Source of the DNA: Roseburia sp.
GTDB taxonomy: Bacteria > Bacillota > Clostridia > Lachnospirales > Lachnospiraceae
NCBI GenBank assembly: GCA_023667765.1
Contig: JAMOZS010000018.1
Coordinates: forward strand, 1 to 45,233
Direction of reading: 5' to 3'
Length of the DNA stretch: 45,233 nt
A program made the position numbers and the translations under genes. The notes under the pieces were generated by a model. That model worked only from the letters and a program-made list of their open reading frames with translations, was not told the DNA's origin and did not search any database. This document shows, in pieces, positions 25,394 to 45,233 of this stretch (within the stretch, counting starts at the first letter, position 1; every line of letters starts with the position of its first letter).

Positions 25394-25422
25394 TTGTGAT
25401 TTATGTCATAATCTTTTATAAT
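25394..25422 (+). promoter_or_regulatory. Promoter of the GH13-like gene
   Basis: TTGTGA (25394-25399) and TATAAT (25417-25422) with a 17-base spacer, ~78 bases before the ATG at 25500. Confidence 0.65.
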
Positions 25423-25499
25423 ACCTATGTATCAATATAACTTGTCAGGCAGAAAAAAGCAAGCAGTATTGACAGGAAGAGATGAAAGGCGGAGGCAGT

Positions 25500-27356
25500 A
25501 TGAATAATAGACAATCACCATATCCCTTGGGGGCGCATTATGAGAAGGGGAAAATCCGTTTTGCCTTTGCTTCCGTACACGAAAACTGTGGTGTGCTGTT
25601 ATATGATAGAAAAACAGGCGCATTACTGGACAAAAGACCTTTCCGGGTAAAAGACAGGATAGGGAATATTTATGGCAGCTGCATGAAGCTGGCCAATCCG
25701 AATGCTGTGACTTATCAGTTTTATGAGGAAGATAAGGTCATACCGGATGCTTATGCAAGGGCTTTTTCGGACAGGGGAGTCTATGGCAGGGCATGCAGGC
25801 CGGAGGAATTAAAAGCAGTTATCTATACAGACCGTTACGATTGGGGAGAGGATGTAAATCCCCGGATTCCCTATGAAAACTGTCTGTGTTATTGTCTGCA
25901 TGTGAGAGGATTTACCGCTCATAAATCCTCTAAGGCGGCGGCAAGGGGAACCTTTGCAGGATTGATGGAAAAGCTTCCCTATTTAAAGGAAACGGGTATT
26001 ACGACGCTGGAGTTTCAGCCCCTTTATGAATTTGTGGAGCATCCCGTAGCCCAAGAGGAAGAACTTTTTTTGCAGCCCAATCAGGAGAGCAAATTGAATT
26101 ACTGGGGTTATACAAAGGGCTATTATTATGCGCCGAAGGGAAGCTACAGCGCCTGTCAGGATGCCGTCAGGGAATGTAAGGATATGATTCGGAGCCTGCA
26201 TAAGAACGGGATGGAGGCCGTGCTGCAATTTTATTTCGACAGGAATACCACCGGAAGAGAAATTCTGGATATCCTGCGCTTTTGGGTGTTGGAATACCAT
26301 GTGGACGGGTTTCATCTGATGGGAGCGGATTTACCCGTTCAGGATTTGGCAAGAGACCCTATGCTCGCGGATACGAAGCTCTGGTATTATAGCTTTGACG
26401 GGATAGGCATAAAGGATAAGGAGGCCTGGAGCCATTTGGCCCGGCTTGCGGTATATGAGGATTCCTATCTTTTTGATATGCGCAAATATCTGAAGGGCGA
26501 TGAGGATATGGTGGCAAAGGTGCTTTATCAGATGCGCCATATTCCCGAGGGGACAGGACGGATTCATTTTCTCAGTAATTATTATGGCCTGACATTGATG
26601 GACACATTTTCCTATGACAGAAAGCATAATGAGGCGAATGGCGAGGATAACCGGGACGGCGGCGATTACAATTGCAGCTGGAATTGCGGCGAGGAGGGAG
26701 CTACCCGTAAGAAAAGGATTCAGCGGTTGCGAAAACAGCTATATAAAAATGCATTGTGTATGTTGTTTTTCACAAGCTCGACGCCCCTGATTTTTATGGG
26801 GGATGAATTTGGAAATTCTCAGGGGGGAAATAATAATCCCTATTGTCAGGACAATGATACCACCTGGCTGAATTGGCGGGATTTGGATAAAAACAGAGAA
26901 TTGTATACATTTTTCTGCAGTCTTGCCCGGTTGAGAAGAGAGCATCCGGTTCTGCGCCCGCAGGCAGAGCCGAGAGTCATGGACTATATTTCCTGTGGTT
27001 ATCCCGATTTGTCCTATCATGGGCAGAACGCCTGGAGGCCGCAGCTGGAAAGCTATAGCAGGCAGGTAGGAATGATGTATTGCGGCAAATATGCCAGAAC
27101 AGGCAACAGAAGGACGGATGATTTTTTCTATGTGGCCATGAATATGCACTGGGAACCTCACGAACTGGCGCTGCCCAGGCTGCCGAAGGATTTGAAATGG
27201 CAGCTTTCTATTCATACAGATATGTCGGGAGCGCAGACAGGGACGGAAACAAAAGGAGAGGGCGAGAAGGAACTCTTGCCGGCCCTTGCCGGACAGGAGC
27301 CGGTAAAACAGGTTGCCCCCCGCAGTATTTGTATTTTTACAAGCGTAAAGGCTTAA
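25500..27356 (+). CDS. Catalytically dead GH13 protein (glycogen debranching/isoamylase-like)
   Basis: A 618-residue homologue of isoamylase/GlgX debranching enzymes: an N-terminal CBM48-like sandwich (~1-115) and a TIM barrel that keeps KHNEANGEDNRDG, WNCGEEG and MGDEFGNSQGGNNNPYCQDN. The three catalytic carboxylates are gone: the nucleophile Asp in VDGFxxD is M274, the acid/base Glu is Y297, and the HD of region IV is Y361-Y362. Hydrolysis is thus not expected; glucan binding or regulation is inferred. ATG 25482 is possible, but 25500 has GGAGG 4 bases upstream. It has its own promoter. Confidence 0.85.
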   Translation: MNNRQSPYPLGAHYEKGKIRFAFASVHENCGVLLYDRKTGALLDKRPFRVKDRIGNIYGSCMKLANPNAVTYQFYEEDKVIPDAYARAFSDRGVYGRACRPEELKAVIYTDRYDWGEDVNPRIPYENCLCYCLHVRGFTAHKSSKAAARGTFAGLMEKLPYLKETGITTLEFQPLYEFVEHPVAQEEELFLQPNQESKLNYWGYTKGYYYAPKGSYSACQDAVRECKDMIRSLHKNGMEAVLQFYFDRNTTGREILDILRFWVLEYHVDGFHLMGADLPVQDLARDPMLADTKLWYYSFDGIGIKDKEAWSHLARLAVYEDSYLFDMRKYLKGDEDMVAKVLYQMRHIPEGTGRIHFLSNYYGLTLMDTFSYDRKHNEANGEDNRDGGDYNCSWNCGEEGATRKKRIQRLRKQLYKNALCMLFFTSSTPLIFMGDEFGNSQGGNNNPYCQDNDTTWLNWRDLDKNRELYTFFCSLARLRREHPVLRPQAEPRVMDYISCGYPDLSYHGQNAWRPQLESYSRQVGMMYCGKYARTGNRRTDDFFYVAMNMHWEPHELALPRLPKDLKWQLSIHTDMSGAQTGTETKGEGEKELLPALAGQEPVKQVAPRSICIFTSVKA

Positions 27357-27396: not shown

Positions 27397-27939
27397 ATGA
27401 GCAAGTTTTGGAAGCATTTAAAAACCATATCCTATCATAAATATCTGGTTGCCAGAGGCTGTTTTCAGATAGGGCTGTATAAGCAGGGACTTTTGCATGA
27501 TATGTCCAAGTACAGTCCGACGGAATTTTTAGTAGGAGTAAAGTATTACCAGGGGAACCGGAGTCCCAATAATGCGGAGAGAGAGGACAGGGGCTATTCT
27601 GCGGCATGGCTCCATCACAAGGGACGTAATAAGCATCACTACGAATATTGGATTGACTACAGCGTTCAAAGCGCCGAGGGAGGCATGGTGCCGGTTCCCA
27701 TGCCGGACCGTTATATTGCGGAGATGATAATGGATCGTATCGCCGCCGCCAAGGTTTATGAGGGCGATAAGTATACAGATGCATCGGCTCTAAGGTACTA
27801 TTGCAAGAGAGGAACGGGTCAGGCTCCGATTCATGAAAAGACCGCAAAAAAGCTGCTTTATTATCTGGAGCTGCTTGCACAGGAGGGAGAAAAGGCTGCT
27901 TTCGCCCGCATCAAAAAGGAGTTGGCGGGTAAAAAATAA
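27397..27939 (+). CDS. DUF5662 family protein
   Basis: A 180-residue protein starting KFWKHLKTISYHKYLVARGCF, with LLHDMSKYSPTEF and HHKGRNKHHYEYW blocks typical of DUF5662. The HD and multiple His suggest a metal site like HD-domain proteins, but activity is unknown. It starts 40 bases after the GH13-like gene with GGGAGG before the ATG and probably shares its transcript. Confidence 0.8.
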   Translation: MSKFWKHLKTISYHKYLVARGCFQIGLYKQGLLHDMSKYSPTEFLVGVKYYQGNRSPNNAEREDRGYSAAWLHHKGRNKHHYEYWIDYSVQSAEGGMVPVPMPDRYIAEMIMDRIAAAKVYEGDKYTDASALRYYCKRGTGQAPIHEKTAKKLLYYLELLAQEGEKAAFARIKKELAGKK

Positions 27940-28007: not shown

Positions 28008-28322
28008 ATGAATTGCTGGATTATTTTCATTTTGCTGCTTTTTTGCGGCGGAAATAATGGATGCGGATGCAATAACGCAGGAGATTGCAGAGAAAGTCGC
28101 CAGAACGGAGACTGTGGCTGCGGCCGTGACAGAGGCCGTGACAGAGATTGCGACAGAAACCGCGACAGAGACCGTGACTGTGATTGTGACAGAGACCGTG
28201 ACAGGGATTGTGACAGAGACAGCGACTGCGGATGCAACGACAGAATTCCTTCTCCCAGAAATAATGATTTTCCCAGTTACAACAGCTGTGGAGAGAACCG
28301 CGGATGCGACAGGGATTCATAA
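28008..28322 (+). CDS. Small Cys-rich protein with Arg-Asp repeats
   Basis: A 104-residue protein: a hydrophobic N-terminus (MNCWIIFILLLFCGG), a Gly/Asn/Cys segment, then ~45 residues of alternating Arg and Asp with interspersed Cys, and a Cys-containing tail. It resembles by eye the small high-cysteine proteins common in Lachnospiraceae (some databases name them chorion-class high-cysteine proteins). Role unknown; a surface or spore-coat location is a guess. The binding site is weak (AAAGGG). A terminator follows. Confidence 0.55.
   Translation: MNCWIIFILLLFCGGNNGCGCNNAGDCRESRQNGDCGCGRDRGRDRDCDRNRDRDRDCDCDRDRDRDCDRDSDCGCNDRIPSPRNNDFPSYNSCGENRGCDRDS
28122..28230 (+). repeat. Short-period GAC/AGA repeat encoding Arg-Asp
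   Basis: Degenerate units of about 6-18 bases built from CGTGACAGA-like words fill the middle of the Cys-rich gene. All frames lack stops here, which creates spurious overlapping ORFs on both strands. Confidence 0.7.
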
Positions 28323-28352
28323 AAAATCGGTAAATGAATTAAAAAGGGAATG

Positions 28353-28384
28353 GACTGCGGCAGAGGCTGCAGTCTTTTTCTTTG
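28353..28384 (+). terminator. Rho-independent terminator
   Basis: GACTGCGGC (28353-28361) pairs with GCTGCAGTC (28366-28374) around AGAG, with one G-U pair, followed by TTTTTCTTTG. Confidence 0.85.
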
Positions 28385-44016: not shown

Positions 44017-45233
44017 ATGACAGGCAAATTATATAAGCTGATGAACTGGCCCAAAATCGAGGAGATTGTTTACTCTGAATGCGATGCTCCTCATACCTGC
44101 CTCGGGCCCCATAAGGCAGGCAGCCAGATGTTATTACAGGCATTTTTCCCGGATGCCGTGAAGGTAAAGGTAAGCTACAGGAAGGAGAAGAATCAGGCGC
44201 CTGTGGAGACAGAGATGGAGCTGGCAGATGAGGAAGGCTTTTTTGCGGCTCTTTTGCCGGTAAAGCAGTTAAAGGCAAAGGATTATGAGTATCTTGTGAG
44301 CTATGAGGACGGTACGGTAAACCGGGTCAGAGATTCCTATGCTTTTGAGCCTCAGATTACCGTTAAAGATACGGACAGGTTTAAAAACGGTATTCATTAT
44401 ACTATCTACGAAAAGCTGGGAGCCCATCCTATGACCATCGACGATGTGGAGGGAACCTATTTTGCGGTGTGGGCTCCCGCAGCCATGCGAATCAGTGTGG
44501 TAGGGGATTTTAATCTCTGGGACGGTCGTGTTCACCAGATGAGACGGCTGTGGGATTCCGGCATTTTTGAGCTGTTTATCCCTGCCGCGAGGACAGGGGA
44601 CAATTATAAGTTTGAATTGAAGCTGAAAAACGGCGCAACCTATCTGAAGGCAGACCCCTATGGCAGTCGGGCCCAGCTTCGTCCCGAGACGGCCTCCGTC
44701 ATTGAAGATTTGCGGAACTTCTCCTGGGAGGACGAGGCGTTTGTGGCCGGTCGGAAGGCGTTTCAGACAGGGGATGTGCCTGTGAGCATTTATGAAATGT
44801 ATTTGGGCTCCTTCATGGCTCCCAAGGAGGGAGAACTGTATGCGAATTATAGGGAGCTTGCCCCCCGGGTCATTGCCTATGTGAAAGAGATGGGCTACAC
44901 CCATGTAGAACTGATGCCGGTTATGGAGCATCCTCTGGACAGTTCCTGGGGCTATCAGGTGATTGGTTATTATGCGCCCACGGCCCGATATGGCAGCCCG
45001 GAGGATTTCATGTATTTTATAAATGAGCTGCACAAGGCCGGAATCGGTGTAATTCTGGACTGGGTGCCGGCGCATTTCCCCAGAGATACGTATGGATTAT
45101 CTAATTTTGACGGGACCTGTCTTTATGAGCACCAGGACCCCCGCCAGGGCGCGCATCCTCATTGGGGCACGTTAATTTATAATTATGGCAGACCGGAGGT
45201 CTCCGATTAGCTGATTGCCAATGGCCTGTATTG
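44017..45233 (+). pseudogene. glgB: 1,4-alpha-glucan branching enzyme with in-frame UAG; 3' end beyond window
   Basis: The frame encodes an N-terminal domain, a CBM48 (GTYFAVWAPAAMRISVVGDFNLWDG, split here by reference) and the start of a GH13 barrel (HVELMPVMEHP, GIGVILDWVPAHF, LIYNYGRPEV). By family it adds alpha-1,6 branches to glycogen. An amber codon at 45208-45210 ends the ORF at residue 397, before the catalytic Asp and Glu. The same frame continues after it as LIANGLY, exactly the GlgB continuation, so the stop interrupts a full-length gene. TAG ends other genes here, so recoding is unlikely; mutation or sequence error fits better. AAAGGATGG precedes the ATG. Confidence 0.85.

Follow-up and report, generated by a model that had tools for sequence, protein, structure and literature searches.

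GlgX belongs to family GH13_11 in CAZy. In plants, the isoamylase ISA2 is non-catalytic, and the available text of PMC12510319 calls the reason for the continued selection of this dead copy not understood. According to a review (PMC12892837), glucose binding by ISA2 is confined to the C-terminal segment, and ISA2 raises ISA1 activity. Here, a bacterial gene for an isoamylase-like protein without catalytic residues was analyzed in a 45,233-nucleotide stretch of Roseburia sp. DNA (contig JAMOZS010000018.1, assembly GCA_023667765.1), referred to as the window in its full length. The reading frame of this pseudo-isoamylase is open from an ATG at 25482 to the stop codon ending at 27356 on the + strand (624 residues). 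A GGAGG motif at 25491-25495 lies 4 nt 5' of a second in-frame ATG at 25500. Residues are numbered from ATG 25482, so that M274, Y297 and Y361-Y362 of an earlier sequence-only reading are M280, Y303 and Y367-Y368 here. The gene and its parts are as follows.

25500..27356, +, coding sequence of the pseudo-isoamylase, 618 residues from ATG 25500; nearest to GlgX/isoamylase by NCBIfam, PDB sequence and fold
26103..26111, +, W208 and Y210, two glucan contacts that are kept (contacts from the accessible part of PMC9530166)
26217..26249, +, residues 246-256, once conserved region I, with Asp replaced by Q249, Asn by D253 and His by R254; the next loop is absent
26304..26321, +, residues 275-280 (DGFHLM), once the nucleophile region, with Arg replaced by H278 and Asp by M280
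26388..26390, +, Y303 in place of the acid/base Glu
26580..26585, +, Y367-Y368 in place of the His-Asp pair
26616..26699, +, residues 379-406, a conserved loop that reads KHNEANGEDNRDG... and carries E388; predicted local distance difference test (pLDDT) mostly <50
26811..26852, +, residues 444-457, a conserved loop that reads GNSQGGNNNPYCQD and carries N452 and Y454; pLDDT <50
26952..27353, +, residues 491-624, the C-terminal beta domain (compared over 491-583), which bears the motifs PDLSYHG..AWRP and NMHWE

The sequence-only reading had claimed that all three catalytic residues are replaced, and phmmer alignments against solved isoamylases and GlgX confirmed this: M280 takes the place of the nucleophile Asp, Y303 that of the acid/base Glu and Y367-Y368 that of the His-Asp pair. 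The respective codons (26319-26321, 26388-26390 and 26580-26585) all lie within the interval 26298-26590 in which it had placed them, and the stretch KHNEANGEDNRDG, which it had described as retained, was found at residues 381-393. The losses extend further than it had noticed. Region I is without its Asp, Asn and His, and the Arg that precedes the nucleophile is gone. Two stretches of the canonical enzymes are missing as well: the loop that lies between region I and region II, and some 14 residues following the nucleophile.

Relatives were collected from the best 80 of 257 contig stretches and from draws of genomes at the level of near relatives, family, order and phylum. The 263 profile hits gave 224 distinct cores, which divided into 174 clade sequences including that of the window (82 from family-wide sets, the others from near relatives; residues were read in these) and 50 canonical sequences. 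The motif [DN]G[FI]RFD served to define the latter, two of which are pullulanase-like rows (L040 and L041). A search for orthologues bearing the D/E/D triad, named beforehand as the finding that would speak against a dead enzyme, returned none among the 174 distinct clade sequences; all three residues were lost in 134, and one or two were kept in 40. The alignment column of the nucleophile depends on where the gaps are placed; counting from D275, Asp is the sixth residue in 1 of the 174 clade sequences versus 50 of 50 canonical ones. In L263, Asp stands at the nucleophile place and the acid/base residue is absent. Across the clade, 13 residue types occupy the nucleophile place. The Met/Tyr/Tyr-Tyr set, whose conservation in orthologues had been put up for checking, was present in only 32 of 174 sequences; the conserved trait is the absence of the full catalytic set. 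An alternative catalytic set of Met/Tyr/Tyr-Tyr was rejected on the same count. Among 86 columns that are ≥96% identical in the 50 canonical sequences, the clade keeps the residue in <10% of its members at 30 columns, in ≥90% at 35 and in an intermediate share at 21. Most of the 30 nearly lost columns lie around the former active site.

In a tree of 155 rows, the 106 clade rows were split from 49 canonical rows, including Lachnospiraceae GlgX, by a branch with support 100; the tree was made by a quick method with midpoint root and carried a long-branch warning. Since the clade stands apart from canonical GlgX, a single catalytic loss would be the simplest account. At genus level, 22 of 24 genomes matched the clade profile, and the two without a match are 59% and 81% complete. 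The family draw comprised 250 Lachnospiraceae genomes (249 genera), of which 229 matched at E 0.001. A clade member was counted in 200, these being the genomes with profile matches left unexplained by a canonical protein (G078 was excluded as ambiguous). The order draw gave matches at E 0.001 in 86 of 147 genomes; at E better than 1e-140 there were 17 genomes among the matches listed, all Lachnospiraceae, and 13 loci from other families (L196-L208) carried canonical residues. Only 4 of 398 genomes of the phylum draw matched at E 1e-60, three Lachnospiraceae and one with canonical motifs. The loci that were read in other families proved to be canonical or foreign to the clade. Two metagenome-assembled records titled Gastranaerophilales and Muribaculum (L049 and L055) hold a clade member and are perhaps mislabelled or mixed bins. 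Within Lachnospiraceae, L255-L276 form a short clade branch, mostly of about 570-600 residues, with about 20 residues gone after the former acid/base region.

The protein is under selection. Among 21 close pairs, one of which was dropped for saturated dS, the ratio of nonsynonymous to synonymous substitution rates (dN/dS) was 0.05-0.14 with a median of 0.095, indicating purifying selection. Decay was rejected on these values, and with the open frames they bear out the earlier remark that the gene is not a case of simple decay. Residues of Streptomyces venezuelae GlgX that touch acarbose are named in the accessible part of PMC9530166, and their counterparts were taken from the phmmer alignment after shifting the numbering by three, as fixed by H449-D450. 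W222, Y224, E470, N534 and Y536 of that enzyme correspond to W208, Y210, E388, N452 and Y454 here, which are conserved in 174, 165, 173, 172 and 164 of the 174 clade sequences, respectively. The contacts of the hydrolytic step in the same list are lost in the window protein; R212 maps to a variable stretch and was left uncounted, and W380 is mostly Phe in the clade (105/174). At the E470 position, the 50 canonical sequences have Trp in 31, Glu in 18 and Asn in 1; Trp (NGW) is found in many Lachnospiraceae GlgX (L124-L153) and Glu in the dead clade.

Conservation was compared between the clade and canonical GlgX in 13 genomes holding both proteins (78 pairs). The greatest drop was at residues 246-370 (clade 0.40 versus GlgX 0.76). 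Values were also lower in the clade for the N-domain (0.34 versus 0.64) and the barrel (0.53 versus 0.71), and slightly so for the two substrate loops (0.77 versus 0.83). For C-domain residues 491-583 the order was reversed, with 0.455 in the clade and 0.359 in GlgX, and the clade value was higher in 74 of the 78 pairs. Constraint has thus left the active-site barrel in favor of the C-terminal domain, and the two substrate loops are still strongly conserved. By the thresholds used, a single clade-specific conserved residue was found, D501, and it lies in the C-domain. It looks as though the protein's work had shifted off the active site, rather than a new active site having formed.

We propose, with a probability of roughly 0.6, that the gene product is a non-catalytic, glucan-binding GlgX-type GH13 protein of glycogen metabolism, which probably holds or organizes glycogen instead of cutting it. 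The remnant cleft formed by W208, Y210, E388, N452 and Y454, and above all the C-domain, would grip alpha-glucan chains on intracellular glycogen, and the bound protein would scaffold or regulate the turnover of glycogen. A non-enzymatic glucan-binding or regulatory role had already been suggested by the sequence-only reading. The retained contact residues, a C-domain conserved above that of the active paralogue and the precedent of ISA2 now favor the suggestion, which keeps the standing of a prediction.

The occurrence of active debranching enzymes was examined in the same family draw, taking as canonical GlgX any match to TIGR02100 at E <1e-100. It was present in 85 of 250 genomes (52 over the curated cut-off), and more often in carriers of the clade protein (78/200) than in non-carriers (6/49; Fisher p 0.0003, kinship ignored). 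In the other 122 carriers no canonical GlgX was seen, and in 89 of the 200, including the window's assembly, neither GlgX nor type I pullulanase. That assembly (93.7% complete) showed no GlgX over the cut-off and no match to type I pullulanase at E 1e-80. A general dependence on GlgX as a partner was rejected on this evidence. A GlgB-type branching enzyme at 44017-45210 is cut by the contig end, and the assembly has a further GlgB, which is complete, on a different contig. The dead isoamylase is commoner than the living one in the family draw (200 versus 85 of 250 genomes). It often occurs without a living one, so a non-catalytic function is open to study apart from an active partner. Surveys of gut bacteria that count glgX homologues may include dead ones, a candidate case being the two homologues reported for Blautia obeum in the accessible text of PMC10395257.

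The surroundings of the gene contain three further features.

25394..25422, +, promoter-like site TTGTGA, spacer of 17, TATAAT (10/12), a consensus match only
27397..27939, +, DUF5662 gene, 40 bp downstream of the pseudo-isoamylase, with an HD-domain-like model that is suggestive only
28352..28375, +, terminator-like hairpin with T tail, 3' of the DUF5662 gene and of an Asp/Arg/Cys-rich open reading frame (ORF), a consensus match only

The earlier description of the gene as promoter-driven holds insofar as promoter-like sites are present upstream; they are consensus matches only. No terminator-like site was found between the pseudo-isoamylase and the DUF5662 gene, and the two are possibly co-transcribed, judging from this arrangement. 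Among the matches listed (179 genomes with clade rows and 150 with DUF5662 rows), 112 genomes had both, and in 53 of these DUF5662 lay ≤1 kb downstream on the same strand, with gaps of <150 bp in 43 and of 212-853 bp in 10. DUF5662 is often the next gene in the short branch L255-L276 too. The family was detected in 209 of 250 Lachnospiraceae genomes versus 0 of 14 control genomes. Its invariant residues are H14, H34-D35, H73-H74, H80-H81 and D113 (88 rows). In VIA-align, ranks 1-6 of the DUF5662 model by Z (6.8 to 5.8, all <8) were HD or HD-GYP proteins, which weakly suggests an HD-like fold. DUF5662 was named in no paper found among open-licence PMC papers. At 40 loci of other genera, the recurring neighbors were DUF5662, an ABC-F-like ATPase and a helicase, the latter two named by reading the sequences without a family search. 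The neighbor of DUF1292 is presumably a helicase. Downstream in the window, a small ORF at 28008-28322 is rich in Asp, Arg and Cys and built on a 12-nt repeat; 46 of 81 loci, that of the window among them, have ORFs of its cluster downstream of the pseudo-isoamylase.

Several observations weigh against a glucan-binding role. Both substrate loops have pLDDT <50 over much of their length, so that a formed cleft is an assumption. The canonical enzymes conserve these loops at least as well (0.83 versus 0.77 in the clade), and the reason for their conservation may instead be structural. Pfam CBM_48 gave no match at E 0.001 in the window protein, though the N-domain aligns with that of GlgX by fold. 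No glg cluster surrounds the gene in the window, nor are glg genes among the recurring neighbors at the 40 loci of other genera. With glgA over the cut-off in 246 of 250 genomes, its presence is too universal for co-occurrence to inform. The 78 pairs behind the comparison of domains were drawn from 13 genomes and are non-independent. A role unrelated to glucan, for example docking of the DUF5662 product, would agree with the close downstream position of that gene in 53 of 112 genomes (43 with gaps <150 bp) and with recurring neighbors that are not glg genes; given the near-invariance of W208, Y210, E388, N452 and Y454, we consider it quite unlikely.

The protein might instead act as an ISA2-like subunit, forming a hetero-oligomer with an active GH13 enzyme that takes part in glycogen metabolism (canonical GlgX, or else GlgB or another GH13) and tuning its activity. 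ISA1 and ISA1-ISA2 complexes are among its closest kin in structure and sequence, and GlgX is commoner in carriers than in non-carriers, but the 122 carriers without GlgX, the 89 without either debranching enzyme and the window's own assembly make such a subunit an unlikely explanation. Because most carriers show no canonical GlgX, an active GlgX subunit would be a less likely partner of the proposed glycogen-binding protein than the DUF5662 product or some other glycogen protein. Acquisition of a different catalytic site by the barrel could explain the strong purifying selection and several invariant polar residues; it is improbable to a high degree, however, as the residues at the former catalytic sites differ widely (13 types at the nucleophile place, Met/Tyr/Tyr-Tyr in 32/174), residues 246-370 are relaxed and D501 is in the C-domain. 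A decaying pseudogene, for which the loss of catalytic residues alone would speak, has a negligible chance in view of full-length open frames in many genera, the low dN/dS in 20 pairs and the wide retention. The glycogen-binding reading can be extended, as a long shot, to a dedicated glycogen receptor of Lachnospiraceae, in which the C-domain and remnant cleft would hold glycogen and the emptied barrel would recruit the HD-like DUF5662 product, placing on the particle a metal-dependent phosphohydrolase whose substrate would be glycogen phosphate or a nucleotide messenger.

No description of a bacterial dead isoamylase was found among open-licence PMC papers. The window protein has the isoamylase fold with N-domain, barrel and C-domain. 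It differs from GlgX/isoamylase (TIGR02100; S. venezuelae GlgX, 7u3d; rice ISA1, 9j60) by the lack of the catalytic Asp, Glu and His-Asp and of region I, by the two absent stretches and by a TIGR02100 score of 285.3 bits, below the curated equivalog cut-off of 640.9. Like plant ISA2 (9xvi_C and 9j6x_C), which is described in the available text of PMC12510319, it combines an isoamylase fold without catalytic residues with long retention, and the nucleophile and most catalytic residues are lost across the clade. Unlike ISA2, which complexes with active ISA1, it is found mostly in organisms that show no canonical GlgX, and an active isoamylase partner was seen neither in 122 of 200 carriers nor in the window's assembly. 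The clade profile scored ISA1 (350.6 bits) above ISA2 (189.7 and 169.0 bits), so these scores give no sign that the dead forms share descent; the tree held no plant ISA2. A likeness to GlgD, a paralogue of GlgC that is regulatory and non-catalytic in bacterial glycogen metabolism (accessible part of PMC10395257), is by analogy only, as the enzyme, fold and step are different. We file the window protein as a non-catalytic isoamylase paralogue that is bacterial and widespread in one family.
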